Assembly: GCA_019694435.1 (NCBI GenBank) | Contig: JAIBBZ010000003.1 | Location: forward strand, 186,001 to 250,000 | DNA length: 64,000 nucleotides | Reading direction: 5' to 3' | Source of the DNA: Pirellulales bacterium | GTDB taxonomy: Bacteria; Planctomycetota; Planctomycetia; Pirellulales; JAEUIK01 | Shown here: positions 6,526-50,717 of the stretch, piece by piece | Position numbering within the stretch: position 1 is the first letter of the stretch | Layout: the number at the start of each line of letters is the position of its first letter | Made by a program: the position numbers and the translations under genes | Notes under the pieces: model-generated | Databases searched by the model: none | Told to the model about the DNA's origin: nothing | The model's input: only the letters and a program-made list of their open reading frames with translations

Positions 6526-7019
6526 TGGGGGCCTCGTCGAGGTCGCTGCGAACGATTTCCTAAGATTTGTTAAGGCTATGCCATCTAACCCAGACAATTC
6601 CTCCAGGCTCGGTTAATTCCCCTTAAGAGGGATGCGACTGCGTTGTCGGCGTTGCAGTCAGGGCTAAACTCGGGCCGTGGGTTTCTGATGCATCGTGTGG
6701 GGTCAGTCCATCGGTTGCCGGCCACGACTCGGCGACAATCGGTGCGTTGGTCAGGGCAAATCGTCGTCGTGCACGCGGGCCTGTTGCGCGCTGATCGCGC
6801 GCGACATCTTCGTCGCACGGACAGACCCTCTTGTATCGAAGCCGCGGCTCGGTGAGCAGCAGGGATCGGGCAGTTGTTGGATAGCTGCCTCGAGACGATG
6901 CCTGCGGATGATTCATGGAGCCCAGCCGCGCACGCACTTGTCGACAATTAACCTTGCGAGCCGTTGTGCTTTCGGGGCGCTAAGACAGAATCGAGAATTG
7001 AACAACTCGAAGCGAAGGT
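6526..7019. other. long leader region upstream of the dlt-like operon
   Basis: I see no convincing gene in these 494 bases. A 10-bp perfect palindrome, TTGTCGACAA, lies at 6938-6947, about 73 bases before the GTG of the first operon gene, and could be an operator. No clear -35/-10 pair was found. Confidence 0.4.
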
Positions 7020-8690
7020 GTGGGAACCGACGTGGCTTCGACTGATGTAGTTACGACTGCTGCTGCAGCGGCTTGCGCGCCTGCGCACAAGGTGTCGCTG
7101 CACACGACGCCCGGACGTGGTCTGGCAGCGATGTTTTTGCAGGCTGCCGCCGTGTATCCGGACCGACCTGCACTGCATGTGCAGGGTAAATGCCAGACCT
7201 ATGCGCAACTCCGTGACCGAGTGGGCCGGGTCGCGCGTGTCCTCTCCCGGCAAAACTTTCCGGTGCCGCGGCTCGGCGCCGTCTTCGGTTCGCGTACCGC
7301 GGCCGTCTACGAGGGGCTCCTAGGCACGCTCGTCGCAGGCGCCGGTTACGTACCGCTGAATCCGCGGTTTCCCGCGGCCCGTAATCGCTTCATGCTCGAA
7401 ACCTCGGGCGCGACGACGCTGGTCGCCGACCACCATTTCGTCGAGCAGCAGGACGAGATCCTGAGCGAGGTCGAGCGCCCGCTGTGCGTCGTACTGCCCG
7501 AGGTTGCCGACGCCGGTGAATACCGCCGCCGCTTTCCGCGTCACGAGTTCTTCGGCGCTTCCGACCTGGAGGCCGCGAGCCCGCTCAAAGAGGCACCCGC
7601 GGTCTGTGACGACGCCTTGGCATATATCTTGTTCACCTCGGGCAGCACCGGGGCGCCCAAAGGCGTGATGGTCACGCATCGCAACGTAATGCATTATGTC
7701 GAGTGCATGTCGCGGCGCTATTGCATCGGTCCGACCGACCGATTTTCGCAAACATTCGACCTGACGTTCGACGTTTCGGTCTCCGATATGTTCGTCTGTT
7801 GGCCCAACGGGGCGTGCCTGTGCGTGCCCACGGCCAATGACATGCTCGCGCCGGCCAAGTTCATCCGCGAGCAGCAGGTGACCGTCTGGTTCTCGGTGCC
7901 CTCGGTGGGCATCCTGATGAAGCGGATGAACCTGTTGAAGCCCGAGGCGTTTCCGAGCGTGCGGTGGAGCTTGTTTGCCGGCGAACCGCTGCCGGCCAGC
8001 ATTGCCGCGGCGTGGAAGATCGCGGCGCCCGACTCGCACGTCGAGAACCTCTACGGCCCGACGGAAGCCACGATCACCTGCACGGTGCATCGATTCGATC
8101 CGGCGGACGACGCGCGCGACGGCACGGTGCCGATCGGCCGGGCGCTGCCAGGGCTCAGCGCCGCGATCGTCGACGAGCACTTGCAACTGGTTCCCGCCGG
8201 GGAGATCGGCGAGCTGTGCATCGCTGGGGCCCAAGTCGCGGCCGGCTACTGGCAAGATCCCGAAAAAACGGCCGATAAATTCGTGGCCATGTCCTGGCAT
8301 GCCGGTCCGGACAATCGCTGGTACCGCACGGGCGACCTGGCGTGCGTGAATGAACAAGGCGACATCCTCTACCGCGGACGCGCCGACGAACAGGTGAAGA
8401 TTCGCGGTTTCCGCGTCGAGCTCATGGAAATCGAGCACGTCCTCAAGAGTGCCGCCGGCACCGAGTTCGTGGCCGTGCTCGCCTATCCGCGCAACGAGTT
8501 GGGCCCGTTGGGCACCACGGCTTTCCTGTCCGGTTCGACGGTCGATCCCGAGTCGATCCTGGCCGTGGCGCGCGAGCGTCTGCCCAACTACATGGTCCCG
8601 CAGGAATTGATCTTCCTGCCGGAAATGCCGCTCAATGCCAATGGCAAGATCGATAAGAAGTCACTCAAACAGCACCTGGAGAACGCATGA
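7020..8690 (+). CDS. DltA-like amino-acid/acid adenylating enzyme
   Basis: A stand-alone 556-residue adenylation domain of the ANL superfamily. Core motifs are in order: LFTSGSTGAPKGV near residue 205 (P-loop), YGPTEATITC near 345, YRTGDLA near 435, GRADEQVKIRGFRVE near 454 (hinge) and the catalytic Lys in NANGKIDKK near 542. It should activate a carboxylic acid as its AMP ester and load it on the carrier protein encoded next, whose gene overlaps its stop by four bases (ATGA). The gene order with an ACP, an SGNH protein and an MBOAT parallels dltA-C-D-B. Planctomycetes lack teichoic acids, so the D-Ala specificity of true DltA cannot be assumed. The start may be GTG 7020 or GTG 7032. Confidence 0.93.
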   Translation: MGTDVASTDVVTTAAAAACAPAHKVSLHTTPGRGLAAMFLQAAAVYPDRPALHVQGKCQTYAQLRDRVGRVARVLSRQNFPVPRLGAVFGSRTAAVYEGLLGTLVAGAGYVPLNPRFPAARNRFMLETSGATTLVADHHFVEQQDEILSEVERPLCVVLPEVADAGEYRRRFPRHEFFGASDLEAASPLKEAPAVCDDALAYILFTSGSTGAPKGVMVTHRNVMHYVECMSRRYCIGPTDRFSQTFDLTFDVSVSDMFVCWPNGACLCVPTANDMLAPAKFIREQQVTVWFSVPSVGILMKRMNLLKPEAFPSVRWSLFAGEPLPASIAAAWKIAAPDSHVENLYGPTEATITCTVHRFDPADDARDGTVPIGRALPGLSAAIVDEHLQLVPAGEIGELCIAGAQVAAGYWQDPEKTADKFVAMSWHAGPDNRWYRTGDLACVNEQGDILYRGRADEQVKIRGFRVELMEIEHVLKSAAGTEFVAVLAYPRNELGPLGTTAFLSGSTVDPESILAVARERLPNYMVPQELIFLPEMPLNANGKIDKKSLKQHLENA

Positions 8691-8959
8691 CCACTCCTGC
8701 GGACATCAAGCAGTTTCTCTGCCAGCACCTGCGGCGCAAGCTCGCCAAGGCCGGAATTGACGATCCGGCCGACAACCTGAGCCTGACCGAGAGCGGCCTG
8801 GTCGATTCGTTCGGCCTGCTGGAAATCGTGATGGCGGTCCAAGACAAGTTCGGTATCCAGGTCGACGTCAGCGAGGTCGACATCGAGGCGTTCACCACCG
8901 TCGGAGGTTTTTGCCGGATCGTATCGGGCTATGCAACCGCGGGCAGCGCGACGGTCTAA
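8687..8959 (+). CDS. DltC-like acyl/peptidyl carrier protein
   Basis: The 90-residue product has the carrier-protein fold pattern, with GLVDSFGLLEIV holding Ser41 as the phosphopantetheine site. The usual LTESG before it and the VDVSEVDIEAFTTVGG helix III region after it are present. Its ATG overlaps the stop of the adenylating enzyme gene, implying translational coupling and a matched pair. It would carry the activated acid as a thioester for the membrane acyltransferase encoded 1.4 kb downstream. A phosphopantetheinyl transferase is needed but is not in the window. Confidence 0.93.
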   Translation: MTTPADIKQFLCQHLRRKLAKAGIDDPADNLSLTESGLVDSFGLLEIVMAVQDKFGIQVDVSEVDIEAFTTVGGFCRIVSGYATAGSATV

Positions 8960-9082
8960 CGCCACAGCGGTCCGCCCCTGGCCGCTGGCCGGTTCTCTCG
9001 CCGAGTTGCCCTTGGCCCGTTGCCAGCCGCGACGAGCTCCTGCCGGGCAAACCACACAACACCGCGTACGTGCCCACCGATC

Positions 9083-10294
9083 ATGACCCCTGCCGGTAAG
9101 ACGGAAATTCGCCCGCTGCACGTCGCCTTGTTCGTCGGGGCGTTTGCGGTCGTGGTGCTCGGCATGGAGACCGTGACTTCGGCCTGGTTGGGCGTGCGCG
9201 GCGACGCGAAGCTCGAGCGACCCGCCTACATGGTCGACGTCGGCCGCGATGCGAAGACGATTCCGCCGGCTATCTCGGATCGCCCAACGGTGCTGTTGCT
9301 GGGCAATTCGCAGATGTACAGCCTGGCCGGGCGGCATCGCGGCGAGCCGCTGCGGAACGAAACGACCAGCACGCTGTTCGACCAATTCGTCCAGCGCGTC
9401 GACGGCTACCTGGGAAGTCACCTGGTGACCTACTACCGGCTGGCTTATCCCAACCAGTTGCCGTTCGAATATCTGACGACCTACTGCGATCTGCTCTCGC
9501 GCGGGTACCGGCCGAACGTCGTCGTCATGGCCTGGAACTGGCCGAACATTGCCCGCGAGCGCGATCTGCGGCACAGCATCCACCTGTACTACAAACGCCC
9601 CGAATACATCAGCTGGCTCGTCGGCCACCTCGAGAATCTCGATACGCCGGGCTCCAAACACGTCCTGGCTGCGGTCCAGGCCGAGATCCGCAAGGCCCGT
9701 ATCGAGATCGAAAAGCAGGACGCCATGTCGGATGCCGACAAGCTCGATCACGAGGCGGTCGACTGGCTGGCTGAACACACGACGCTCGTCGGCCAAAGCT
9801 CGGAGATTCGCAGCCGCATCTACCGTTCGGTCGTGAACGGCTTCCAGGAGCGCGTGGTGCAAAACGTCGAGGGCTATCAGCGCGGCGTGATCGAAGCCGA
9901 CCTGGAATTCAACCAGCACTGCCTCAGTGCCTTGCTTGCCCTGATGAGCCAGTACCGGGCCAAGGTGCTGATTTATGAGGAGCCGGTCCGCGGCGATATG
10001 GCGTCGTTCGTCGAGACGTCGCGGCACTACGAAGTGCTCAGTCGCCTGGTCTCGGTCGCCCGAGGCTACGGGTTCGACTTTGTCGACGCGCGTGAAGTCG
10101 TACCCAACGAGTACTGGGGTTGGGCCGGCAATTACCCCGATCGCGGCCACTTCACCGAGACGGGGCACGAGCTGCTGGCCGAGTTCCTGTTCCAAACCGG
10201 CAAACAATGCGGGCTCTGGGATCACTTGAAGACGGGCGTGTCTGTCGACGACGCGCAAGCGTTTGCCGGCGAGTTGCAGCAGACCGCAGAATAA
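9083..10294 (+). CDS. DltD/AlgX-like SGNH protein with N-terminal membrane anchor
   Basis: A 403-residue protein with one N-terminal hydrophobic segment (about residues 11-30, LHVALFVGAFAVVVLGMET) and an external SGNH-like domain. The nucleophile block is LLLGNSQMYSL, with the Ser near residue 76. The C-terminal Asp/His block is DRGHFTETGHELLAEF near 353. GNS replaces the usual GDS. Similar proteins (DltD, AlgX/AlgJ, PatB-like) hand acyl groups from an MBOAT to a polymer or trim them. The ATG at 9083 is chosen because the upstream extension from 9020 is not protein-like. It lies between the carrier protein gene (123-base gap) and the MBOAT gene (33-base gap), supporting one operon. Confidence 0.85.
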   Translation: MTPAGKTEIRPLHVALFVGAFAVVVLGMETVTSAWLGVRGDAKLERPAYMVDVGRDAKTIPPAISDRPTVLLLGNSQMYSLAGRHRGEPLRNETTSTLFDQFVQRVDGYLGSHLVTYYRLAYPNQLPFEYLTTYCDLLSRGYRPNVVVMAWNWPNIARERDLRHSIHLYYKRPEYISWLVGHLENLDTPGSKHVLAAVQAEIRKARIEIEKQDAMSDADKLDHEAVDWLAEHTTLVGQSSEIRSRIYRSVVNGFQERVVQNVEGYQRGVIEADLEFNQHCLSALLALMSQYRAKVLIYEEPVRGDMASFVETSRHYEVLSRLVSVARGYGFDFVDAREVVPNEYWGWAGNYPDRGHFTETGHELLAEFLFQTGKQCGLWDHLKTGVSVDDAQAFAGELQQTAE

Positions 10295-10327
10295 CCCGCC
10301 TCGACTCCTTCCATCGCTGCGTGATTC

Positions 10328-11785
10328 ATGCGCTTCGTTTCGCCGGTTTTTTGGATCTTCCTGCTGTCCGTCGTGATCGTTCTGGGCCTCTTGCCCCGGT
10401 CCTGGCGCAAATGGTGGCTGCTGGTCACCAGTTATCTGTTCTATGCCTCGTGGCATTGGCCCTACCTGGCGCTGCTCTGCGGCTGTGCGGTGCTCACCTG
10501 GTGGGGCGGCAATTGGATTGCCCAAGTCGAGGGCCCCCTGCGCGCTCGGCGCGGCTGGACCATCATCTTGATCAACGTCGCAGTGTTGGTGCTGTACAAG
10601 TACCTCGACTGGACCATCCTGCAGTTGCGCATCGTCAACCGGCTGCTGGGCCTCTCGTTCGAGATTCCGTATGCCGAGCTGGTCTTGCCCCTGGGCATCT
10701 CGTTTTATCTCTTCGAGTCGAGCAGCTACATCTTCGACGTCGTCAAGAAGCGCGAATCGCCGCACGGCTTCTGGGACGTGCAACTGTTCATTGCCTTCTT
10801 CCCCAAGCTGATCGCCGGGCCGATCATGCGGGCCAAGGAGTTGATGCCCCAGTTCGAGGGTGAGTTGCGGCCCACGGCTCGCGATCTGCAAGAAGGGCTG
10901 ACGCTGATCGCCACGGGGCTGTTCACCAAGGCCGTCCTGGCCGACTCGATCGGACCACAGGTCGACGACGCCTTCGCGCGCGAGGCCGTCGCGCTGGGCT
11001 CGACCGACGTGATGGTCATGTCGATGGCCTTCGCCGTGCAGTGCTATCTCGATTTCTCCGCCTACTCGCGGATCGCCCTGGGGGCAGCGCAGATGTGCGG
11101 GATCCGCCTGGTCGAAAACTTCAACTTCCCGTTGAGCGCAACGTCGCCGCCCGACTTCTGGAACCGCTGGCACATGTCGCTGTCGCGGTGGATTCGCGAC
11201 TATGTCTACTATCCGCTCGTCGGTGGCCGCGTGACGCTGGGCAACATGTGCCGCGCCACGATCCTTGCCATGACCATCTGCGGCGTCTGGCACGGCGCGG
11301 GCTGGAAGTTTGCCGTCTACGGGCTGTACCACGGCTGCCTGATCGCCGCTTATCACGTGTTCCGCTATGTCACGCGGAAGTACCAGCCCTTGGCCGAGGA
11401 CGACACCTGGGCCGGACGGATCGTGGCGGGCCTATCGGTCGTCGCGCTGAACGTCGCGCTCTGGCCTGCCTGGGCGATGTTCCGTGCGGACGATTTCCGG
11501 CATGCCCTGCAATTGTTGGCCATCATGTTCATGCCCTGGCAACACTCGGTCCGGTCGCTGTCCGGCACGTTCTATCTGCACGTCGCCACGCTCATGGCCT
11601 TGGTGTGGATGGCACCCTACCTGGTACCTGCCCTGAAACAGCTCGGCGCCGAGATCGGCGCCAAGGTTTCACAGCGTCGCCAGGGCTGGCTCTCGGCCAC
11701 CGGGGGAGCCGTGACCGGCCTGTTGTTCGCGCTGTGCCTGGTCTATTTGCGCGGCAAGCTGACGTTTATCTATTTCCAGTTCTGA
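10328..11785 (+). CDS. MBOAT family membrane O-acyltransferase (DltB/AlgI type)
   Basis: The 485-residue protein has many membrane segments spread over its length and the MBOAT signatures. LPLGISFYLFESSSYIFD is near residue 120, FFPKLIAGPIMRAKELMPQF near 157 and DFWNRWHMSLSRWIRDYVYYPL near 276. The invariant histidine is His322 in CGVWHGAGWKF. Members move an acyl or aminoacyl group across the membrane onto a hydroxyl of an extracytoplasmic polymer or lipid. As the last gene of the four-gene dlt-like set it is the likely transferase, taking its substrate from the carrier protein. Alginate-type acetylation (AlgI) is the other well-known role, but AlgI systems lack a dedicated adenylating enzyme and carrier protein. 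Confidence 0.95.
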   Translation: MRFVSPVFWIFLLSVVIVLGLLPRSWRKWWLLVTSYLFYASWHWPYLALLCGCAVLTWWGGNWIAQVEGPLRARRGWTIILINVAVLVLYKYLDWTILQLRIVNRLLGLSFEIPYAELVLPLGISFYLFESSSYIFDVVKKRESPHGFWDVQLFIAFFPKLIAGPIMRAKELMPQFEGELRPTARDLQEGLTLIATGLFTKAVLADSIGPQVDDAFAREAVALGSTDVMVMSMAFAVQCYLDFSAYSRIALGAAQMCGIRLVENFNFPLSATSPPDFWNRWHMSLSRWIRDYVYYPLVGGRVTLGNMCRATILAMTICGVWHGAGWKFAVYGLYHGCLIAAYHVFRYVTRKYQPLAEDDTWAGRIVAGLSVVALNVALWPAWAMFRADDFRHALQLLAIMFMPWQHSVRSLSGTFYLHVATLMALVWMAPYLVPALKQLGAEIGAKVSQRRQGWLSATGGAVTGLLFALCLVYLRGKLTFIYFQF

Positions 11786-39492: not shown

Positions 39493-40941
39493 TTAGGGCC
39501 GGTCGCGTTCGGCGCCGTTCGACGTCGCCGGAGCCAGGCCGCTGGCGACCGCCGCGGCCAGGGCCTCGTCTTGCGGCGGGAAGACCGTGCGAAGGTCGAG
39601 CAGCAATCGGCCCTGGTTGATGCGCCCCACGACGGCCGGAGTGCCCGTGCGCAGACGTTGGGCCAACGCATCGACGTGCCCGTCGCGCGGCACCACGGCC
39701 ACGCAACAAGTAGGGACCTGCTGGCCCGGAATCGAACCCCCGCCGAGGTAGGTCGCCTCGTCCACCGTCGTGACTTCGCGGGCCAGGTCAGCTCGGCGCA
39801 GCGTGTCGGCAATCTGGGCGGCGCGGCAGCGGAGTTGATCCAGGGGCTCGCCGAGGAGCTGGAACAGCGGGATCTCGCTCAGGGCCCGCGCCGGATTGCG
39901 GTACAGCCGCAGGGTGGCTTCCAACGCGGCCAGCGTCAGCTTGTCGACGCGCACCGCTCGCGCCATTGGATGCCGCGCGATACGGGCGATCAGTTCGCCG
40001 CGTCCGGCGAGAACGCCGCTTTGCGGCCCGCCGAGCAGTTTGTCGCCGCTGAACAACACCAAATCGGCGCCTTCGCGCAGACTGCGCGTGACAAGCGGTT
40101 CGTCGTGCAGGCCAAATCGGGCAAAGTCGATCAGGGCCCCGGAACCGAGATCGTGCAGCAGCGGTAGCCGGCGCTCGCGCGCCAGCGCGGCCAGCTCGCG
40201 CAGCGGCACGCTCTCGGTGAAACCCACCACCGAATAGTTGCTCGTATGCACCGCCAACAACGCGGCAGTGCACTCGCCAATTGCGTCGCGATAGTCGGCC
40301 AGTCGCGTCTTGTTGGTGGTGCCAACCTCGCGCAGCACCGCGCCGCTCGCGGCCATCACGTCGGGCAGCCGGTAACTGCCCCCGATCTCGATCAACTCGC
40401 CGCGCGAGACGATCACCTCGCGCCCCGCGGCCAGGGCAGCCAGTGCGAGCATCGTGGCCGCGGCGTTGTTGTTGACGACCAGCGCCGCTTCGGCCCCCGT
40501 CAGCTCGGCCAGCAGCCCCGCGACGGCCGCGACGCGCTGCGAACGCTCGCCGCTGAACAGATCGAGCTCGACGCTGGAGTAGTCGCGGGCCGCCTGCACG
40601 AGCGCTTCCGCGGCAACTTCAGCCAAGGGCGCGCGTCCCAGGCCAGTATGCAGCAAAATGCCGGTCGCATTGATCACCGGCCGCAACCGGGGCAACTCGG
40701 CGTCCGCCAGTCGTGCGGCGACGAGCTGCGGCACGGCCGCCGGATCGAGGGTGCCGCCGGGCGCCGTAAGGATCGATCGGCGCAGTTCCTCGAGTACGCC
40801 CCGCGCGGCGGCGACCACGGCCGGATGCCCGAGCCGTGCAACGAGCGGCTGCAGCGCAGCGTTGGCCAGCAGTTCGCCGACGCTCGGTAGCGCCCGCAAC
40901 TTTTCGGCACGACGCGGATCGAGTTCATGCTCGCGCTGCAT
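39493..40941 (-). CDS. selA: L-seryl-tRNA(Sec) selenium transferase
   Basis: The 482-residue PLP enzyme converts Ser-tRNA(Sec) to Sec-tRNA(Sec) with selenophosphate. Family markers are LRALPSVGELL near residue 15, INATGILLHTGLGRAPLAE near 90, VVNNNAAATML near 153, REVGTTNKTRLADY near 203 and SGDKLLGGPQSG with the PLP lysine near 301. Length matches the family. It is the last gene of selD-selB-selA (24 bases after selB). The tRNA it acts on, selC, is at 50620-50717. The ATG at 40941 fits the usual N-terminus. Confidence 0.98.
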   Translation of the reverse strand: MQREHELDPRRAEKLRALPSVGELLANAALQPLVARLGHPAVVAAARGVLEELRRSILTAPGGTLDPAAVPQLVAARLADAELPRLRPVINATGILLHTGLGRAPLAEVAAEALVQAARDYSSVELDLFSGERSQRVAAVAGLLAELTGAEAALVVNNNAAATMLALAALAAGREVIVSRGELIEIGGSYRLPDVMAASGAVLREVGTTNKTRLADYRDAIGECTAALLAVHTSNYSVVGFTESVPLRELAALARERRLPLLHDLGSGALIDFARFGLHDEPLVTRSLREGADLVLFSGDKLLGGPQSGVLAGRGELIARIARHPMARAVRVDKLTLAALEATLRLYRNPARALSEIPLFQLLGEPLDQLRCRAAQIADTLRRADLAREVTTVDEATYLGGGSIPGQQVPTCCVAVVPRDGHVDALAQRLRTGTPAVVGRINQGRLLLDLRTVFPPQDEALAAAVASGLAPATSNGAERDRP

Positions 40942-40965
40942 GGCCAGTTCCGATTCGAGGCAGCA

Positions 40966-42894
40966 TCACACGGCCGCGGGAGTCGCGGCCAGCCGCCGCA
41001 GGTCACCCTCGCGCCGCGTGAATCCCACGCGGTCGAAGTACTCACACAAGGGTACCGCATGCTTGCGGCTGATGCCCAAGCGATCCTTGATCTGGCTGAC
41101 CGTCAACCCGGCGCCGGCCAGATCCGGCAGGAGCAGTTCGCGCGCCCGGGCCTCGTGTTCGGCATGCACGAACAGCTCTCCCCCCAGATCGACCAGGTGC
41201 CCCTGCCCTGCGGCCAATTGCAGCAGTTGCGGTACGGCGTCGCGATTGCGCTTGGCGCCAGCCTGCAGCTCGGCGACCGTCGGCGGTTGCAGTCCGGCCT
41301 GGCGTATCGCTGCGACCAACTCGGCGAGCAGCTTCTGCTCGTTGCTCGTCAACCGCGGACCATGCGAGGCCAGCGCAATCCCCTTGGGAAGCACACGGAC
41401 ACGATGTCGCGCGACGAGCAGGTCGACCAGCGCCTCGACGATCGCGCGATCGCCCAAGCCGGCAAACCGCGCCACCAGCCGGCTGCGCTCGACCGCCACG
41501 GCCAACGGCTCGGCGGCATGCAGGTGCATCAGCGCCCCCTCGATGCGCTGCAAATACGTCTCGACCACCTCGCGATGCACGCGCAGATTGCGCGTTGGCG
41601 ACAGGGCGAGTATGAGCACCTCGCCCGACTCGATCAGGCGCGCGACGATTTCGCCGGGCCGCGCAATCCCGACCAGGCGGATCAGGTCCGCGTCGGCCCA
41701 GCAGCGCAAACCGCGAAAATAAATCGCCGCCGCCGCGCGTTTCAGGGGATCGCTGTCGCCCAGCGCGGCGAGCTGCGCACAAACCGCGGGGACATTACGC
41801 GGAATTCGCTCGGCCCCGGGGTCGAGCACGTGACCACCGCCGAGCGTCTCGGCCGGGCTTTCGCGCCGCAGCACCAGCGGCTGCCGCCAGGTCGCCACGA
41901 CCGGTTCGGCAAGCAGCAGTTGGATCAACCCTCGCTCGCCTGGGGCCAACACACTGACCTGGGGCAAACTCACCGTGGCCGACACCTCGGCGGTTCCCAC
42001 GTGCACCCGCAAACGTTCGCGATGTTGCAGCCCGCGTGCGGCGTGCCGCAACACTTGCGCCTCGACGCTCAGCAGCCGGCTGGGCACCAGGTGTCCCGGT
42101 GTGGCGAGCTCCTGCCCGCGCCGGATCTGATCGTGATGAACGCCAGCCAGGTTGACGGCGGCCCGCTGGCCGCGATGGACTTCGGCCACCGGCCGGTCGT
42201 GATTCTGCAAGCCGCGCACGCGCACGGCGACGCCGCCCGGTTCGATCACCAGCTCGTCGCCCAAACGGCAGACGCCGCTGGCTACGCTCCCGGTGACCAC
42301 CGTGCCGTGTCCGGCCACGGTAAACGCGCGATCGATCGCCATCCGGAAGGGAGCGGTCGCGTCCGGCACAACGCTGCGCGCCGCCGACGCGGCTGCCTCG
42401 GCCAGCGCGATGCGCAGAGCATCGAGGCCCGCGCCGGTCGCGCTGCTAACGCGGACGATGGGAGCTGCGCGCAGGAAACTATTGGCGACCAACGCGCGCA
42501 CCTCGGCTTCGACCAGCTCGATCCAAGCGGGCTCAACCAGATCGCACTTAGTCAGCGCGATCACCCCGGCCCGCGTGTCGAGCAGGCGCAGGATGTCGAC
42601 ATGCTCGCGCGTTTGTGCCTTGACCGATTCGTCGGCGCCGACGACCAACAGGGCCAGATCGATGCCCGTCGCGCCGGTGAGCATGTTGCGGATGAACCGC
42701 TCATGGCCCGGCACATCGACAACTCCCAGACAATACTCGCCGAGCTCGAGCCGCGCGAAACCGAGTTCGATCGTGATGCCGCGCCGCTTCTCTTCCGGCA
42801 GGCGATCGGTGTCGACGCCGGTCAACGCCCGGATGAGCGCCGTTTTGCCGTGATCGACGTGTCCGGCCGTGCCAAGAATGAGATCGATGCCCAT
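40966..42894 (-). CDS. selB: selenocysteine-specific elongation factor SelB
   Basis: The 642-residue GTPase delivers Sec-tRNA(Sec) to UGA codons that carry a SECIS hairpin. G1 GTAGHVDHGKTAL (residues 8-20), G2 KRRGITIELGFA, G3 DVPGHERFIRNML near 59 and G4 ALTKCDLVEP near 113 are intact. Translation-factor beta domains follow. The C-terminus (about 390-642) is made of winged-helix repeats that bind SECIS RNA (for example LSQIKDRLGISRKHAVPLCEYFDRVG-type). It lies nine bases after the selD fusion gene and 24 before selA, so the three form an operon. Confidence 0.98.
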   Translation of the reverse strand: MGIDLILGTAGHVDHGKTALIRALTGVDTDRLPEEKRRGITIELGFARLELGEYCLGVVDVPGHERFIRNMLTGATGIDLALLVVGADESVKAQTREHVDILRLLDTRAGVIALTKCDLVEPAWIELVEAEVRALVANSFLRAAPIVRVSSATGAGLDALRIALAEAAASAARSVVPDATAPFRMAIDRAFTVAGHGTVVTGSVASGVCRLGDELVIEPGGVAVRVRGLQNHDRPVAEVHRGQRAAVNLAGVHHDQIRRGQELATPGHLVPSRLLSVEAQVLRHAARGLQHRERLRVHVGTAEVSATVSLPQVSVLAPGERGLIQLLLAEPVVATWRQPLVLRRESPAETLGGGHVLDPGAERIPRNVPAVCAQLAALGDSDPLKRAAAAIYFRGLRCWADADLIRLVGIARPGEIVARLIESGEVLILALSPTRNLRVHREVVETYLQRIEGALMHLHAAEPLAVAVERSRLVARFAGLGDRAIVEALVDLLVARHRVRVLPKGIALASHGPRLTSNEQKLLAELVAAIRQAGLQPPTVAELQAGAKRNRDAVPQLLQLAAGQGHLVDLGGELFVHAEHEARARELLLPDLAGAGLTVSQIKDRLGISRKHAVPLCEYFDRVGFTRREGDLRRLAATPAAV

Positions 42895-42903
42895 GCCTCG
42901 ATT

Positions 42904-45120
42904 CTACTGGACGGTCAGCAGCGGCGTGGACGAGGGGGCGTCCCCGGCCCGGGAAACGACGCGTCCGATCTCCGCGGCCCGCATGCCCGTCTGCGCGGTG
43001 AACGCGCGGACGACCTCGTCGACCCGAGTCTCGGGCACCCCCAGCAGCAATCCACCTGAGGTTTGTGGGTCGAATAATAAGGCATAGCGCGGCAGGGCAA
43101 GCCGGTCCGGGGAGACCTGCATTTCGGCCTCGACCGCACGGTTGGCAGGCAACAGCGTGCTGGCCACTCCGGCGGCCGAGAGCTCTTCTGCGCCCGGAAG
43201 CACGGGCACTTCGTCCAGGTAGATCTCGGCCGCCAGCCGACTGGACCGCAGCATCTCGAGCAAGTGCCCCGCGAGGCCGAACCCCGTTACATCGGTCATC
43301 CCGGCGACATCGCAGCGTTCGAAGATTCCGCTGGGGGGTTGGTTGCTGGCGACCAGCATCTCGACCAGCGCCGCATACCAGGCGGCCCGGCAGCGGGCCT
43401 GCATGTGCGCCGCGAGCAAGACGCCGGTCCCCAACGGTTTGGTCAACACCAGCCGATCACCGGCACGCAGGTGACCTTTCAACCGCGGATGGGACGCGGC
43501 GCGAGCGAGCACCGTAAAGCCGAGCGTGGTCTGCGGACCCTCGATGGTGTGTCCGCCGACAAGCGTGGCCCCCATGCCGCGCAGCTCAGCCAGCCCTCCG
43601 GCCAGCAGTTCGTAGAGCAATTGTTCCTGACGTGCTTCGGGGCCGGGCGGAATCGTGGCCAGCGCCAATGCTGCCAGCGGCTGTCCGCCCGAGGCGAACA
43701 CGTCGCTGGCCGCATGTTGTGCCGCCACGCGGCCGACCAGGTAAGGATCGTCGACAAACGCGGCAAAGAAATCCGCCGTGACGAGCAACGGGCCCGGCTC
43801 GACCTGCAAGACGGCCGCATCGTCGGGGCGGTCCAGCCCCACCAAGACGTCGGGACGCACCGGTACTTCGAGCCGCGCAAGCGTGCGCGCCAGTACACGA
43901 CCGGCAACCTTGCCCCCGCAACCGGTGCAACGTGGTTGCGCGCCGCGCGCGACCAAGGCTTCGTCTTGCATCGAGGGCGACTGGTAGTCCTGATGCATCG
44001 ACATGAAGCGGCGATCGATCCGGTCCTTGAGCCGCCAACACCAGCGGCCCTCGGCCGACCAACCGCGGTAGTCGAGAATCGCCTCGCCGTCGCCGGTCGA
44101 GACCAGCTTCAGAAACCCGCGCTGCGGGCGATACGCCGCCAGGGGCAAGCCGCCGGACAGACGGCCCAGATTCTCCCACAGCACGGGACCTTGCCGCACG
44201 GCGTAAACCCCGGCCTTCGGCGCTGGCCCCGCGGCCAACGTGCCGCAATCGCCGACGGCGAAGATGGGGGCTTCGGCCACGGTTTGCAACGTAGGCCGTG
44301 TCAGCAAGAAACCGCGTTCGTCGGTCGGCAGGCTCAAACACTTCAACAATGGCGGAGCGGCCGCACTCGTGGCCCAGAGCACCACATCGGCCGGCACGCG
44401 CGTGCCGTCGTCGAGCCGCAGCGCGTCGGGATCGATCGCTACGACCTGGCGACCGAGGATTATTTGCGCCCCGCTGCGCTGCAGCCGGCGCGCGAGGCGG
44501 GCAGCGGCACCCGGCGAAAGATCGCGAACCGGTGCCGCGTGCCGGTCGATCACCGTCAACGTCGATTCGCGGCCGGCGAAGTGCCGCCGCAGGTAGGCGG
44601 GCATCCCCATTGCGATCTCGGCGCCCGCCACGCCGGCGCCAACCACGACGATCTTCACGGTTTGCCCCGGCAACGCCACGTCGTTGAGACGCGCGTGCAG
44701 CCGAGGCAGAAACGTCTGCATTGGCTTGATCGGCACGACCGCGGCCGGCGGTTCGTCGAACAGGCCCTCGGCGCGCGGAACCGAGCCGATGCCGATCGAC
44801 AGCACGTCGAACGGCACATCGGGCCGATTGGCCAGTTGCAACCTCTGCCCCGCTACGTCGAGCCCGGTAACCTCGGCGCAAAGCAGCCGCGCACCGACCG
44901 AGGCGCACAGCCGAACCAGGTCGATCTCCATCGCTTCCGGCTCGTACAGGCCGGCGAGCGTGCCCGGCAGCATCCCCGAATAGGTGGCCGTTGGAAAACG
45001 GCTGATACAGGTCAGCCGGGCGTCGGCGAGCGGCGACATCCGCCAGCGGCGCAACACATGCGTGTGGGTGTGGCCGGCTCCCAGCAGGACGATCTCGCGT
45101 TGCGGCAGCCGCGCTTGCAT
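42904..45120 (-). CDS. selD: selenophosphate synthetase fused to an N-terminal NDH-like flavoprotein
   Basis: The 738-residue fusion has two parts. Residues 1-385 are a pyridine-nucleotide-disulfide/NADH-dehydrogenase-like FAD protein of the kind known as an N-terminal partner to SelD: IVLLGAGHTHTHVLRRW at the start, VVVGAGVAGAEIAMG near 155 and FAVGDCGTLA near 300. Residues about 390-738 are SelD, which makes selenophosphate from selenide and ATP. Its N-terminal active site is CTGCGGKV with Cys398, Cys401 and Lys404, so Cys rather than Sec is used. TADFFAAFVDDPYLVGRVAAQH, FDPQTSGGLLLGV and other AIRS-fold motifs follow. It is the first gene of the sel operon. The electron acceptor and purpose of the flavoprotein half are unknown. 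Confidence 0.95.
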   Translation of the reverse strand: MQARLPQREIVLLGAGHTHTHVLRRWRMSPLADARLTCISRFPTATYSGMLPGTLAGLYEPEAMEIDLVRLCASVGARLLCAEVTGLDVAGQRLQLANRPDVPFDVLSIGIGSVPRAEGLFDEPPAAVVPIKPMQTFLPRLHARLNDVALPGQTVKIVVVGAGVAGAEIAMGMPAYLRRHFAGRESTLTVIDRHAAPVRDLSPGAAARLARRLQRSGAQIILGRQVVAIDPDALRLDDGTRVPADVVLWATSAAAPPLLKCLSLPTDERGFLLTRPTLQTVAEAPIFAVGDCGTLAAGPAPKAGVYAVRQGPVLWENLGRLSGGLPLAAYRPQRGFLKLVSTGDGEAILDYRGWSAEGRWCWRLKDRIDRRFMSMHQDYQSPSMQDEALVARGAQPRCTGCGGKVAGRVLARTLARLEVPVRPDVLVGLDRPDDAAVLQVEPGPLLVTADFFAAFVDDPYLVGRVAAQHAASDVFASGGQPLAALALATIPPGPEARQEQLLYELLAGGLAELRGMGATLVGGHTIEGPQTTLGFTVLARAASHPRLKGHLRAGDRLVLTKPLGTGVLLAAHMQARCRAAWYAALVEMLVASNQPPSGIFERCDVAGMTDVTGFGLAGHLLEMLRSSRLAAEIYLDEVPVLPGAEELSAAGVASTLLPANRAVEAEMQVSPDRLALPRYALLFDPQTSGGLLLGVPETRVDEVVRAFTAQTGMRAAEIGRVVSRAGDAPSSTPLLTVQ

Positions 45121-45228
45121 TCAGTCGGCGACAATGAGGGGACAGCGGGGGCTTTTCCCATCATAGAAGCGCGCCGTGCACGTCGCCAAGAATGCCGTGA
45201 ACCGAGCCGTGTCGTGCGGAACGCCGCG

Positions 45229-45717
45229 CTAGAACGTCTCGTCGCCGGGGCGCGGCTGGCCGATCCAATCCTTGAGGGTTTGCGGCTGCTGCGGCTCCGG
45301 TTCTTCTTGACCGAACATCGAGGAGAACCACGACCCCTGCGATTCCTGCTTCGACGACTTATGCGCTTTCTTGGTCGTCTTCTTCGTGTGGGTCTCGGGT
45401 GTCCAGCGAGGATACCGGCTCGTCGAAGTCTCCTTCTTCGAGAACGACAAGGCATTGCCGGTGCGAGTAAAGAAATTGCGCGTGCTCGTGCCCATCCGTG
45501 CAAACAGCGAGGGCTGCTTTTTCGCGGCCGGTCGCTTTGGCGCAGGCGTCTTGGGCGCCGACTCGGGCGCAGCATCGGGAATGTCGTCGCCGCTCGTGTC
45601 AGGGACTTCTTCCTCGGTAGCGCCGAATGGCCACCATCCGCCCCCTTCTGCGCGTGCCGGTTCGACGAACTGTCCCAACAGCAAAACGCCGAGCAGCAAT
45701 AGGACCGTAGCCTTCAC
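45229..45717 (-). CDS. small secreted Lys/Pro-rich protein
   Basis: The 162-residue product starts at GTG 45717, chosen because a strong GGAGG (45728-45724 on the minus strand) stands seven bases before it and a signal peptide (ATVLLLLGVLLLGQFVEPARA) follows at once. The mature part is short: WWPFGATEEE, a Pro/Ala/Lys-rich linker, FARMGTSTRNFFTRTGNALSF, and a Lys/Ser/Gln-rich end. Proteins with this WWPF and FxxxGxxxxNFFxxT pattern occur in planctomycetes without a role. It lies upstream of the sel operon on the same strand, with about 108 bases between. Confidence 0.75.
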   Translation of the reverse strand: MKATVLLLLGVLLLGQFVEPARAEGGGWWPFGATEEEVPDTSGDDIPDAAPESAPKTPAPKRPAAKKQPSLFARMGTSTRNFFTRTGNALSFSKKETSTSRYPRWTPETHTKKTTKKAHKSSKQESQGSWFSSMFGQEEPEPQQPQTLKDWIGQPRPGDETF

Positions 45718-45899
45718 GGGTACGACCTCCGAAAGGTTCATGGGCGAATGCCCGGGGCCGAAAGGCTGCACGCGGCGGCCCACGCCGCCGATGCAGGCCG
45801 GAGAGAATGCCGAACCGCAGGCGGCCTGTCCAGAGCGGTTCGCGAGGCGCACCGCGCGCGAGCATGCAGCTAGCACGCAACGGGAATGCACCTGGACCG

Positions 45900-45933
45900 A
45901 AAAAAATAGCGCCGGGAAGAAATCCTGGCGCCT
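45900..45933 (-). terminator. intrinsic terminator of the 79-residue protein gene
   Basis: On the minus strand AGGCGCCAGGA (45933-45923) pairs with TCCCGGCGCT (45917-45908), one base mismatched, around a short loop, and is followed by A then seven T residues (45906-45900). It lies 59 bases past the stop at 45992. Confidence 0.75.
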
Positions 45934-45991
45934 GATCACATGTTCGGAGAATCCGCCTTCGCGAAGGCGGCTTGCGAAACAGCAGCAGCCG

Positions 45992-46231
45992 CTATTGGGC
46001 GGCTGCGACCTTGCGCGAACGCTTCGGCTTGGCCGGCTTCTCGGCGTCGCCATTCTTGGCGGCGAAGATCCGGCGGATCTCATCCAGCTCGGTGCTCAAG
46101 CGATGACGCAACGGGCTCTCGGCCCGCAGTTCCTCGAGCAAGGCCTCGGCCCTTTCGAACTTCTCGAGTGACGCCGCACCACCTTGAAACAACTTATGCC
46201 AGCTACGCGAGACCTCTTGTTCGGTTAGCAC
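45992..46231 (-). CDS. small conserved-looking protein of unknown function
   Basis: The 79-residue product starts at GTG 46231 with AAGGTG a few bases upstream. It has a helical, acidic-basic sequence (QEVSRSWHKLFQGGAASL, ERAEALLEELRAESPLRHRL, ELDEIRRIF) and ends in a Lys/Arg-rich tail (AEKPAKPKRSRKVAAAQ). No signal peptide, so cytoplasmic. The clean intrinsic terminator behind it and good ribosome site argue that it is real. I do not recognise the family; the basic tail could bind nucleic acid, which is only a guess. Confidence 0.65.
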   Translation of the reverse strand: MLTEQEVSRSWHKLFQGGAASLEKFERAEALLEELRAESPLRHRLSTELDEIRRIFAAKNGDAEKPAKPKRSRKVAAAQ

Positions 46232-46431
46232 AATTCACCTTCTTGCCCGCGGCCCGTGAAACTCTCGCAACTCGCTCCACTTCAATTCTAAATTGTAGCG
46301 CGCGGCACGCAAGAGCGAAACGTCGCACTTCGGCGCCACTTGGCAGGCGAATGACCGTCGAAGCGCGCAAAAATCCGCCAAGGTTCGCCCAGTTTACCTG
46401 TGGGGTCATCGAACGACGGCAACGCTCTGTG

Positions 46432-49400
46432 CTAGTTGCGCGACGCCTCGGCCGCCCGCAGATGCGACAAATTGGGCGCCGAGATCTCGGATTCAGGAGC
46501 CGTTTCGCCATCGCCGGTCAACCGCGCCAGCTCTTCCGCCACGGCCGCCACGGTCGCGCGAATCTGATGCTCGCGATGCAAGCTGGTGAGAAAGAACCGC
46601 AAACGCGCCGCGCTTTCTTCCACGGCCGGATAGACGATCGGCTGCACGTTGATCCCGCGTCCGCGCAACGCATGCGACAGGCGCAAGGCCAGCACCGAGT
46701 TGCCGACGATCACCGGTACGATCGGGGTCCCGTCGCTGAGGCCGGTGTTCAAGCCACGGGCCCGGGCCAGCTCCAGGAACAAGCGCGCGTTGTCGCGCAA
46801 TGTCGCCACGCGCTGGGGTTCGCGCGCCAGAATTCGCAACGACTCCAACGCCGCCGCCGCATTGGGCGGGGTCATGCCGACGCTGAACACAAAGCCCGGC
46901 GCCGTGTACTTCAAGTACTCGACCACCGCGCGGCTGCCGGCGATGTAGCCGCCGCAACTGCCGTAGGACTTGCTCAGCGTGCCCATCCAGAAGTCGACGT
47001 TGCCGGGATCGACGCCGAAATGCTCGCCGGCGCCACGGCCCGTGGCGCCGAGCGTGCCGGCCGAATGCGCCTCGTCGACCAGCAGGTAGGCCTTGTGCCG
47101 GCGCTTCACCTCGACGAACTCAGGCAGCGGGGCGATGTCGCCGTCCATGCTGTAAGCACCTTCGATCGCCACCAGCACCCGGCGATACTCGCCGCGCACG
47201 TCGGCCAGCAGCTTGTCCAGGGCCCGCCAGTCGTTATGCGGGAAGCTGCGCCGCTTGGCGCCCGACAACTTGCAACCTTGCACGATGCTGTTGTGGGCCA
47301 AGGCGTCGTGCACGACCAGATCCGGCGCGCCGAACAGGTGGCCGATCACGGTTTCGTTCGTCGCGTGGCCGCCGACCAGCACGATCGCATCCTCGACGCC
47401 CACGAACTCGGCGATCGCCTGCTCGAGCTGGCGATGCAACGGCTTCTCGCCCGATACCAGCCGGCTGGCCGAGACCGAGGTGCCATAGCGGTCGATCGCC
47501 GCCTTGGCCGCCTGGGCCACGCGCGGGTCGCCCGACATGCCCAGGTAGTTGTAGCTGGAGAAATTGATCAACTCGCGGCCGCCAACCACGGTCGTGTCGT
47601 TCGTCACGCGCTCGTGTGGGTTGAAATAGGGATTCCCCATGCCGAGCGAATCGAGCAGACCCAGGTCCTCGCGCAGCGCCTGGTACTCGGGCGACAGCTC
47701 GAAGCGGTAGCAACTCTCCGGCAAATCGGCGACGCTCCGCGCAGCGCGGGCCGGCTGGGAGAGGAGGTGCTCGTGAACCGCGGTGATCACTTCGGACACG
47801 GTCTCGAGTTGCCCGGCGATATCCTCGGGAAACCGCCGCTCGAACCGCTCCTCGACCTTGGCCAGGAGCTGCACCCGCTCCAACGAATCGATACCCAGAT
47901 CGGCCAATTGCATGCCGAGCGTCAGCTCGCGCGCGCGATCGCCGAGTAGCTCGCGCAAGACCACGAACACACGGTCGGAGATCTCTTCGTCGCTGGTGCC
48001 GGCCTTGGCCGCGTGAACTTCGCCGTTGAGTGCGTGACCGTTGGCGTGCGGTTTGTGCGCGTGGCCGTTGGTCGCGCGGCCATGGGCCGCATGTTGCGTC
48101 GTTTCTCCAGCTGCGCTCGGCGTCGCGGCCGCCTGCATAGGTTCGACCTGCGGACGCTTGATCGGCTCCGCGGCGCCGGCCTGTGCTTTGCGGGCCGCTG
48201 CCGCGCGTTCGGGCGTGGCGAGGGGCGATTCTTCCTCGTCGAGGCGTGACCACTGGTAAAACGCATCGAGCTCGCCCGCCAGGTAGGCCGCGCGGCATGC
48301 ATGGCGCTGAATCTTGCCGCTCGAGGTCTTGGGAATGCTCCCCGGCTTGAGCAAGACGATCGCATCGAGCATCAACTCGTGCTCGCGCGCCACGGCATGA
48401 CGCACCGCGTCAGCCGCGGCGGGGGCGTCCTGGCGCCGCGTGCGCTCGACCTCGATCGCCAGCACGAGCCGTTGCGAGCCGTTTTCCGGCACGTCGAACG
48501 CGGCGGCCGCACCCTGCCGCAGAGCCGCGTGGGCCAGCTCGGCCGATTGCTCGATGTCCTGCGGATAGTGATTCAAACCGCGAACGATGATCAAGTCCTT
48601 GAGACGCCCGGTGACGAACAATTCGCCCTGAGCGAAGAACCCCAGGTCGCCGGTCCGCAGGTAGGGCCCGGTGCCGTCGGCCAAGTAGTTGCCAAACGTG
48701 CGCCCCTGTTCGTCCGGGCGCTGCCAGTAGCCTTGGGCGATGCTTGGCCCGGCGGCCCAAATCTCGCCGATGTGGCCTTCGGCGACGGGCGTGAGCGTCT
48801 CCGGATCGACGATCAACACTGTCTGGTCAGGAATCGCTTCGCCCGAGCTAACGAGCTCGCGAATCGAGGCCGATTCCTCGTCGGCCAGTTGAGTCCGGCG
48901 GTGTTCGAGCGCGGCCGCGTCGAAACCGAGCACCAGCGGTCGGCGCTGCACGTATCCACCAGTCACGATCAGCGTGCCTTCGGCGAGGCCGTAACAAGGA
49001 TAGAACGCCTCGGGCCGGAACCCGCAAGGCGCGAAGCGTTCGGCAAAGGCCCGCAAGGTTTCGGCGCGCACTGGTTCGGCGCCGTTGAACGCCACGCGCC
49101 AACTGCTCAGATCGAGCTCGCGCAGCTCTTCGTCCGTGGTCTTGCGCAGGCACAACTCGTAAGCAAAATTCGGCGCGCCGCTCGTAGTACCGCGATAGCG
49201 CGAGATCGCTTGCAGCCAGCGCACCGGCTTTTGCAAGAATGCCATCGGCGACATGAACACGTTCGGACGCCCGGCATACAGCGGCTGCAGGATGCCGCCG
49301 ATCAGGCCCATGTCGTGATACGACGGCAACCAGTACACGCCCGAACCGCTGCGCGTGTGCTCGAACAGATGATGGATGGCCGCCGAGTTGTGCAGCAAAT

Positions 49401-49980
49401 TGCCGTGCGTCAACACGACACCCTTGGGCCGCGCGGTCGATCCCGAGGTGTATTGCAGGAACGCTACCGTGTCGGTGTGAACCGTGGGCACATGCCACCC
49501 GGTCGCCAGATCCGGCGAAAGCTGATCGGTCAAATGCCAGCGCAGCCGCTTGAGCTGGGGCAATTCGTCGAGCATGGGACCAATGCGCTCGTAGATGGCC
49601 GTCGTCGTCAGTGCTGCCTGGGCCTCGCTGTCGGCCGCGATGGCCTGAATCCGCTCGAGCGATCGATTGCGTCGCGGAGGGAATGCGGTCACGGCGATCG
49701 TGGCCGCGTACAAGCAACCGAAAAAGCCCGCGATGAACTCCAGCCCGGGCGGATACAGGAGCAGCGCCCGTTCGCCGGCCATGCGCTCGGCCGCCAACAA
49801 GGCCCCGATGGCCCGGGCCTGGCGATCGAGCTCGCCCGCGGCCAGGTGTTGCTCCTGCGATTCGCCGTCGACCAGATAGGTGAAAACGCGCAAATCGGGC
49901 TGGTGGATGGCTCGATGGCGGACCAATTCGACAAAGGTCGCCGGTCCGAAAAACGAACCCGGCATACGATCGCGTTCCAC
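46432..49980 (-). CDS. three-domain protein: fatty-acyl-AMP ligase, acyl carrier protein, alpha-oxoamine synthase
   Basis: The 1182-residue product has three parts. Residues 1-570 are a fatty-acyl-AMP ligase: LQYTSGSTARPKGVVLTH, WLPSYHDMGLIGG and YLRTGDLGFF. Residues about 660-745 are an acyl carrier protein with Ser699 in LGIDSLERVQLL. Residues about 775-1160 are a PLP-dependent alpha-oxoamine synthase (BioF/KBL/SPT type) with NFSSYNYLG, GTSVSASRLVSG, DEAHSAGTLGATGRG and the PLP lysine Lys1004 in GTLSKSYGSCGGY. It would activate a fatty acid, load it on its own carrier and condense it with an amino acid with loss of CO2 to a 2-amino-3-ketone, like a sphingoid base. GAGGA before GTG 49980 sets the start; ATG 49965 is an alternative. 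Product unknown. Confidence 0.93.
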   Translation of the reverse strand: MERDRMPGSFFGPATFVELVRHRAIHQPDLRVFTYLVDGESQEQHLAAGELDRQARAIGALLAAERMAGERALLLYPPGLEFIAGFFGCLYAATIAVTAFPPRRNRSLERIQAIAADSEAQAALTTTAIYERIGPMLDELPQLKRLRWHLTDQLSPDLATGWHVPTVHTDTVAFLQYTSGSTARPKGVVLTHGNLLHNSAAIHHLFEHTRSGSGVYWLPSYHDMGLIGGILQPLYAGRPNVFMSPMAFLQKPVRWLQAISRYRGTTSGAPNFAYELCLRKTTDEELRELDLSSWRVAFNGAEPVRAETLRAFAERFAPCGFRPEAFYPCYGLAEGTLIVTGGYVQRRPLVLGFDAAALEHRRTQLADEESASIRELVSSGEAIPDQTVLIVDPETLTPVAEGHIGEIWAAGPSIAQGYWQRPDEQGRTFGNYLADGTGPYLRTGDLGFFAQGELFVTGRLKDLIIVRGLNHYPQDIEQSAELAHAALRQGAAAAFDVPENGSQRLVLAIEVERTRRQDAPAAADAVRHAVAREHELMLDAIVLLKPGSIPKTSSGKIQRHACRAAYLAGELDAFYQWSRLDEEESPLATPERAAAARKAQAGAAEPIKRPQVEPMQAAATPSAAGETTQHAAHGRATNGHAHKPHANGHALNGEVHAAKAGTSDEEISDRVFVVLRELLGDRARELTLGMQLADLGIDSLERVQLLAKVEERFERRFPEDIAGQLETVSEVITAVHEHLLSQPARAARSVADLPESCYRFELSPEYQALREDLGLLDSLGMGNPYFNPHERVTNDTTVVGGRELINFSSYNYLGMSGDPRVAQAAKAAIDRYGTSVSASRLVSGEKPLHRQLEQAIAEFVGVEDAIVLVGGHATNETVIGHLFGAPDLVVHDALAHNSIVQGCKLSGAKRRSFPHNDWRALDKLLADVRGEYRRVLVAIEGAYSMDGDIAPLPEFVEVKRRHKAYLLVDEAHSAGTLGATGRGAGEHFGVDPGNVDFWMGTLSKSYGSCGGYIAGSRAVVEYLKYTAPGFVFSVGMTPPNAAAALESLRILAREPQRVATLRDNARLFLELARARGLNTGLSDGTPIVPVIVGNSVLALRLSHALRGRGINVQPIVYPAVEESAARLRFFLTSLHREHQIRATVAAVAEELARLTGDGETAPESEISAPNLSHLRAAEASRN

Positions 49981-50619
49981 GAGTCTTGCTTCCTCTACTT
50001 GGTGCAGTCGCCGCGCCTCCGGCGGACTCGTCGCGACGGCCCAAGCCCGTCGTCCGAGCAACCGCTGAGGGCTCTCGTCAAATGTCCAAGGACTGTTAGC
50101 CTTCCTGGCGGGATCGTCGTTTGAGCCTCGGGGGCGGGCTCACCGAATCGAGACCGGCAGCACCGATCACAGTCGGCAAGACCTGATTGCTCAAACGGCA
50201 ACTTTTCGGTCGGGTAGGAGGACCGCAGGCTAGGTCATCGACGCTGTGTTCCGATTCGGGCCCCCGTGCAATGCAGGGGTGCCGGTCGGACCACGACGCA
50301 CCGTCGACCTAGAAGAGATTCGGCAACCTCCCAAACTCCCAAGAACGCCTAACGTCGAGAACGGCAAGATTTACCCAGCCTGTCACACCCAACGGGCCTG
50401 CTAGCCCAGCAGGCTTACCCAGGCATTTTAGGCGACAGAATCGGCAAGCAAGAAGTCACTATCAAGGTGGGCAAGTCAATAAACCAACCAGTCATGCCGC
50501 CTCGCGGCGGTCCCATGCGAGCCCACCCTCTTGGGCCAATTGAGTTGCGCGCGTCGCGGTCTCCATAATCGGGGTTCGCCTGGGCCTCGCGCTGCGCACG
50601 ATCGCACGCGGCCCGGCTT
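49981..50619. other. leader region between the FAAL-ACP-AONS gene and selC
   Basis: No gene is supported in 639 bases, and the middle part (50100-50470) is less G+C-rich than its neighbours. GCCTGCT (50396-50402) and AGCAGGC (50408-50414) make a 7-bp hairpin of unknown meaning. The selC promoter candidate is at 50540-50569. Confidence 0.45.
50540..50569 (+). promoter_or_regulatory. possible promoter for selC
   Basis: TTGAGT (50540-50545, four of six), an 18-base spacer and CATAAT (50564-50569, five of six). Transcription would start near 50576, about 44 bases before tRNA-Sec. Confidence 0.38.
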
Positions 50620-50717
50620 GGAAGTGCCAGCTTGCCTGGTGGCGGCCACGGTCTTCAAAACCGCTGTGCGTAGCGTTCAAACGCGGCGCAGGTGGGTTCG
50701 ATTCCCATGCACTTCCG
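50620..50717 (+). tRNA. selC: tRNA-Sec (anticodon UCA)
   Basis: The acceptor stem GGAAGTGC (50620-50627) pairs with GCACTTCC (50709-50716), eight base pairs as in bacterial tRNA-Sec, with G50717 as discriminator and no encoded CCA. The anticodon loop CTTCAAA carries TCA. The long variable arm (TGCGTAGCGTTCAAACGCGGCGCA region) and the T arm GTGGG-TTCGATT-CCCAT are as expected. The extended D arm (GCTTGCCTGGTGGCGGC) resembles that of E. coli selC. The sel operon is 5.5 kb to the left. Confidence 0.95.

Follow-up and report, generated by a model that had tools for sequence, protein, structure and literature searches.

A single protein joining a fatty acyl-AMP ligase, an acyl carrier protein and an alpha-oxoamine synthase in Pirellulales, a probable self-contained source of long-chain aminoketones

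In Caulobacter crescentus and Escherichia coli BL21 the ligase AasR, which does not acylate CoA, loads a dedicated acyl carrier protein (ACP), AcpR, and an alpha-oxoamine synthase (AOS), serine palmitoyltransferase (SPT), condenses the acyl chain with an amino acid (PMC9386255). Here we describe a gene of a Pirellulales bacterium that fuses a fatty acyl-AMP ligase (FAAL), an ACP and an AOS in one chain of 1182 residues, and whose product is probably a self-contained long-chain alpha-aminoketone synthase. The gene occupies positions 46432-49980 on the minus strand of a 64,000-nucleotide stretch of contig JAIBBZ010000003.1 (positions 186,001 to 250,000; assembly GCA_019694435.1), referred to throughout as the window. 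The AasR/AcpR/SPT system differs in consisting of three separate proteins, with an epimerase adjoining and an AOS of the SPT clade; its E. coli plasmid representatives (locus L111) are 37% identical to the window AOS (SPT), 36% to the FAAL (AasR) and, over just 46 residues, 28% to the ACP (AcpR).

Several other described systems share parts of this arrangement. The FAAL of the Synechococcus olefin synthase (7r7e/7r7f) is 52% identical over the whole FAAL domain, with a TM-score of 0.94, and loads an ACP in cis, but is followed by a polyketide synthase (PKS) module and not by an AOS. RkpG of Sinorhizobium rkp loci, and the AOSs that accompany type I PKSs or form their C-termini in capsule (rkp/wcb-like) and cyanobacterial loci, are at 53-60% identity the nearest AOS sequences recovered from beyond the phylum, and with the window AOS they make up a single clade with full support; their acyl chain, however, comes from a PKS (ketosynthase, KS; acyltransferase, AT; and ACP; in complete ones also dehydratase, DH; enoylreductase, ER; and ketoreductase, KR), they have no FAAL, and a short-chain dehydrogenase/reductase (SDR; RkpH) and capsule export genes often adjoin them. 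SulA/Cfat likewise joins acyl-ACP to an amino acid in a decarboxylative condensation that depends on pyridoxal phosphate (PLP), but it is a stand-alone enzyme of 32% identity with an active-site lysine, Lys281, that is absent from the window protein (PMC9304779). BioWF is a natural fusion of a carboxylate-activating ligase with an AOS, although its ligase, BioW, makes pimeloyl-CoA and the fusion lacks an ACP (PMC9544090). All parts of the window protein come from known families, and AasR, AcpR and SPT, as separate proteins, already divide the work in this way; what is new is that the gene is spread across an order and that its AOS is of RkpG type and not an SPT. No paper pairing a FAAL with an oxoamine synthase and an ACP, with SPT, or with 8-amino-7-oxononanoate synthase was found in the open-access literature, which is weak evidence.

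The reading frame, checked by translation, Pfam matches and codons, runs from a GTG start to a TAG stop with no internal stop. Pfam models score above their cut-offs for AMP-binding at residues 22-419 (E 2e-59), AMP-dom_DIP2-like at 462-573, PP-binding (PF00550) at 673-734 and Aminotran_1_2 at 803-1140 (E 2.5e-48). AlphaFold, run on 24 family members, models the FAAL, ACP and AOS as three folded units with disordered linkers at residues 583-661 and 768-793 (mean pLDDT, the model's confidence score, 75.8), and Foldseek places the first unit on the Synechococcus FAAL 7r7f (identity and TM-score as given above) and the last on the AOS/SPT structures 7poc and 8guh (TM-score 0.89). The third domain therefore has the oxoamine synthase core, and the fusion in one chain, first proposed in a reading of the letters alone (the sequence-only reading), is confirmed by Pfam, AlphaFold, Foldseek and the conservation described below. 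That reading spoke of three catalytic parts; three parts are indeed fused, but the ACP is a carrier, and the protein hence has two catalytic domains and one carrier.

The FAAL domain (residues 14-577, 48250-49941) has the AMP-binding fold with the A3 motif TSGSTxxPKG, RTGD and the C-terminal Lys556, all intact. It is matched best by FAAL models and structures, in full-length alignments with no large gap, and the cut-offs of named FAAL subfamilies are not reached. Because a FAAL model and a solved FAAL structure both align with it from one end to the other, the FAAL-specific insertion appears to be kept, and on this alignment the sequence is of FAAL type rather than that of an acyl-CoA ligase. 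A flexible linker follows (residues 578-664, 47989-48249; pLDDT below 50 at 583-661). The ACP domain (residues ~665-740, 47761-47988) has the PP-binding fold with modeled helices at 664-683, 699-713 and 728-740, and in its DSL motif (GIDSLE) carries Ser699, the phosphopantetheine attachment site (codon TCG, 47884-47886). The AOS domain (residues ~795-1150, 46531-47598) is a fold-type I PLP enzyme with the Schiff-base lysine Lys1004 in TLSKSYGSCGG (codon AAG, 46969-46971), His896 (47293-47295), which aligns with the PLP-stacking His of SPT, KBL and BioF, and Asp969, His972 and the carboxylate arginine Arg1128; all of these features lie on the minus strand. Ser699 and Lys1004 are both where the sequence-only reading had placed them.

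These residues are almost without exception conserved in an alignment of 77 full-length homologues. The adenylation motifs of the FAAL are near invariant, Lys556 is present in 77/77, as are Ser699, Asp969, His972, Arg1126 and Arg1128, while 76 of the 77 keep His896 and 75 keep Lys1004. The linker between FAAL and ACP varies from 27 to 178 residues, whereas the stretch between ACP and AOS is constrained to 54-65, and for this reason the FAAL seems to be loosely tethered and the ACP and AOS to form one unit.

A search of GTDB species genomes with the protein recovered at least 80 loci, all in planctomycete records, nearly all full length and 45-60% identical. Conservation of a three-domain protein, almost always entire, at this many loci excludes a chance arrangement. 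The genome census covered Planctomycetota. An even sample of the phylum gave strong matches in 23 of 392 genomes, among them all 15 other Pirellulales genomes sampled (one, G327, through its FAAL only); matches outside the order in this sample are to single parts, mostly the FAAL. Within Pirellulales the ACP-AOS part is present in 129 of 148 sampled genomes (119/136 among the good ones), and at least 119 genomes, counted from the matches listed, have it within an open frame of 1121-1329 residues, the size of the three-domain protein. The remaining 19 genomes, one of them a 99% complete genome from the family to which the window belongs, have no match at the threshold used, and the gene is therefore near-universal in the order but dispensable. 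The architecture, with its catalytic residues intact, is conserved across the order, a spread that lay beyond the reach of the sequence-only reading, as did the placement of the AOS with RkpG and PKS-associated enzymes.

Profile models alone do not name the AOS: the domain matches bioF, Kbl, SPT, ALAS and autoinducer models, each below its curated cut-off. Two trees place it, with 100/100 support, in a clade with RkpG of Sinorhizobium pSymB, a name that follows the rkp-1 region and the position of the gene on pSymB beside a large PKS-like gene and an SDR. Also in this clade are AOSs encoded on plasmids of Shinella, Caballeronia and Pseudomonas beside type I PKSs, as well as the AOS domains that end the PKSs of Planktothrix, Streptomyces and other Pirellulales. 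It is separate from BioF/KBL and from the SPTs and cysteate transferases, and its internal branching order is not resolved by the trees. The ACP-AOS unit recurs in several settings: fused to KS-AT-DH-ER-KR in a protein of 2567 residues in other Pirellulales, some of which also carry the three-domain protein; within a cyanobacterial PKS of 2532 residues; and as a FAAL-less ACP-AOS protein of ~520-560 residues in yet other Pirellulales. A planctomycete of the same class outside the order (L128) has a PKS, an RkpG-like AOS and an RkpH-like SDR (39% identity) in a row. We infer that the ACP-AOS is a movable unit that can be supplied by either a PKS or a FAAL. Since RkpG-type AOSs otherwise sit with type I PKSs, the FAAL that the window gene has instead most likely stands in for the PKS as the acyl source. 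The genes wcbR and rkpA are PKS genes within capsule clusters (PMC3908369); no capsule genes are present among the neighbors of the window gene that were examined. Another Pirellulales locus, of family f98 (L127, 16-9261), combines an AOS of the RkpG/PKS-associated clade that has no FAAL with a family 2 glycosyltransferase, a protein resembling fatty-acyl or thioester reductases and an MMPL transporter, and may be a locus for glycolipid assembly and export.

The probable route can be assembled from the biochemistry of the families concerned. The FAAL would use ATP to convert a free long-chain fatty acid to an acyl-adenylate, and the acyl group would then pass to the phosphopantetheine arm on Ser699 of the in-cis ACP, swung over the long flexible linker, as is usual in FAAL biochemistry. 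The closest solved FAAL (7r7e/f) was crystallized with stearoyl- and palmitoyl-adenylate, and three genes of the phosphopantetheinyl-transferase family are present in the genome. The AOS, with PLP on Lys1004, would form the external aldimine of an amino acid, which by Claisen-type attack on the acyl-ACP, with loss of CO2, would release a long-chain aminoketone; the aldimine, the attack on acyl-ACP and the decarboxylation are expected from AOS biochemistry (PMC9304779, PMC9386255). The order of the reactions and the independence from CoA follow from family knowledge, and on that footing the CoA-free route anticipated by the sequence-only reading is supported. Because its substrate would be free fatty acids, the enzyme may tap a separate pool of acyl chains, a proposal that Padilla-Gomez et al. 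make for AasR/AcpR (PMC9386255).

The choice of amino acid is less constrained. SulA requires Lys281, where SPTs have Ala (PMC9304779). The corresponding residue is Val1034 (46879-46881, minus strand), and the column is Val in 60 of the 77 homologues, with Lys not among the residues listed, Thr in BioF and ThAOS, and Asn in KBL. This disfavors cysteate while leaving the choice among Gly, Ala, Ser and others undecided. Serine stays a possible substrate because the Tyr810-Asn811-Tyr812 stretch resembles Sphingomonas SPT, and our guess is a small neutral amino acid such as Ser, Ala or Gly. The end product may be a membrane or surface lipid that is further reduced, acylated or glycosylated.

Four observations weigh against the protein being an aminoketone synthase. 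First, the PLP lysine is lost in two homologues that form their own deep branch, L097 (Tyr) and L101 (His), which indicates that the three-domain architecture can lose condensation. Second, no activity is reported in the accessible literature for any member of the RkpG/PKS-associated clade. Third, a cyanobacterial AOS outside the SPT clade gave no 3-ketosphinganine in E. coli (PMC8895605). Fourth, clustering of all open reading frames around 80 homologues revealed no conserved neighbor that indicates the product. The two lysine-less proteins (L097, 5309-8809; L101, 260-3961) retain the FAAL motifs and the ACP serine, and their AOS domain may have lost condensation and acquired a new role.

Of the alternatives to an aminoketone synthase of the RkpG type, the one that fares best, though we consider it unlikely, is that the protein is a functional SPT, a fused AasR-AcpR-SPT making 3-ketosphinganine for ordinary ceramides. 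Caulobacter and E. coli B encode the three activities in separate genes (PMC9386255; L111), Planctomycetota are counted among the phyla with Spt-like proteins (PMC11334938), and the motifs YNYLGM and SKS and the position of Tyr810 resemble Sphingomonas SPT. The AOS nonetheless falls in another clade, and forcing the three-domain AOSs together with SPTs yields a tree that is 118.7 log-likelihood units worse (p 1e-59 in the approximately unbiased, or AU, test); the SPT models score 231-305 bits against cut-offs of 500-670, and Val1034 stands where SPT has Ala. An SPT identity by sequence is rejected on the tree, the model cut-offs and the AU test, and the last of these refutes membership of the SPT clade, which narrows the product suggested by the sequence-only reading. 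The genome also encodes two more AOSs as stand-alone proteins, whose branches adjoin the SPT/cysteate clade. The one on contig C5 (L130, 7390-11524) is SPT-like and lies beside a GNAT and a divergent NAD-epimerase (28% identity to E. coli CerR, E 5e-24) in what looks like an ordinary ceramide-type cluster, a candidate that makes the window protein less likely to be the SPT of the cell. In a search for a ceramide-path partner with PF04339, which we take as a stand-in for ceramide N-acyltransferase, the sole match was below the cut-off, which is weak evidence.

Less probable still is a role in making a secondary metabolite or a diffusible signal, for example a hydroxyketone precursor of CqsA type or a pyrazine precursor, in place of a structural lipid. 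Natural-product clusters often contain FAALs and PKS-borne AOSs, and the window FAAL shares 50% identity with the FAAL of a nonribosomal peptide synthetase (NRPS) in the same genome, but the gene spans the whole order without a conserved biosynthetic cluster around it, and the autoinducer synthase model is matched only weakly (157 bits against 428). The NRPS (contig C28; L117, 6487-12669) has 2060 residues in the order FAAL, ACP, condensation, adenylation, peptidyl carrier protein and thioesterase domains, and its product is probably an N-acyl amino acid or small lipopeptide. Another FAAL of the genome adjoins a radical SAM gene on contig C5.

It seems highly improbable that the protein is a sulfonolipid starter enzyme using cysteate. 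SulA/Cfat does use acyl-ACP (PMC9304779), and a Legionella plasmid (L104) joins FAAL-ACP to a sulfolactate synthase beside a Cfat-like AOS, but identity to Cfats is only 28-32%, the clade is different, and the Lys281 position, occupied by Val, leads us to reject cysteate specificity and counts against the sulfonolipid-like product of the sequence-only reading. On that plasmid, from Legionella lytica (6004-10875), a cysteate-transferase-like AOS is followed by the FAAL-ACP-phosphosulfolactate synthase (ComA) fusion and a 2-phosphosulfolactate phosphatase, an arrangement that resembles a compact operon for sulfonolipid initiation outside Bacteroidota. The least probable alternative of all, a biotin-pathway fusion of BioW-BioF type activating pimelate, has in its favor that no AOS model scores higher than bioF (350 bits) and that BioWF is a known ligase-AOS fusion (PMC9544090), but the score falls below the bioF cut-off of 426, the ligase is of long-chain FAAL type, the tree separates the AOS from BioF, and another gene of the genome passes with 450 bits, so that a BioF identity is rejected on the cut-off and the separate BioF. 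That BioF makes up the C-terminal part of a ~900-residue open frame on contig C6 (L119, 3182-5839).

The surroundings of the gene do not point to a pathway. A Shine-Dalgarno-like sequence read directly from the DNA, AGAGGAAG (49989-49996, minus strand), ends 8 nt upstream of the GTG. The gene lies within a selenocysteine locus (39493-50717) with selA (39493-40941), selB (40966-42894) and a fusion of an FAD-oxidoreductase with an AIRS (SelD-like) domain (42904-45120) on the minus strand and tRNA-Sec (50620-50717) on the plus strand; selenocysteine genes were not recognized among the conserved neighbors of the homologues. The clustering around the 80 homologues found no enzyme common to the neighborhoods across the order and no ketoreductase as a conserved neighbor, in agreement with the earlier statement that no tailoring enzyme sits next door, and finishing steps, if any, are therefore encoded elsewhere. 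The recurrent neighbors are a downstream BBP7 porin-like protein (20 loci) and an uncharacterized upstream protein (15 loci), and LeuA-like and KS/ACP genes lie upstream in a handful of related loci, mostly of gut planctomycetes.

If the protein is an aminoketone synthase, one protein of ~130 kDa with a fatty acid, an amino acid and ATP would be a complete route to a long-chain aminoketone, useful for biocatalysis and a clean system in which to study an ACP-dependent AOS. Fused enzymes of this kind could also pass as SPTs in surveys of sphingolipid producers. We tentatively propose, as a possibility that is appreciably less probable than the synthase function itself, that Pirellulales, beside having ordinary sphingolipid genes, make an undescribed core lipid, a sphingoid-like aminoketone or a derivative of it. 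A single enzyme, complete in itself and with a FAAL in the place of a PKS, would build this lipid from free fatty acids, and the lipid might anchor surface polysaccharide, a role suspected at rkp/wcb loci. The near-universal conservation of the gene in an order with poorly known lipids predicts a missing lipid class that should be findable by lipidomics.

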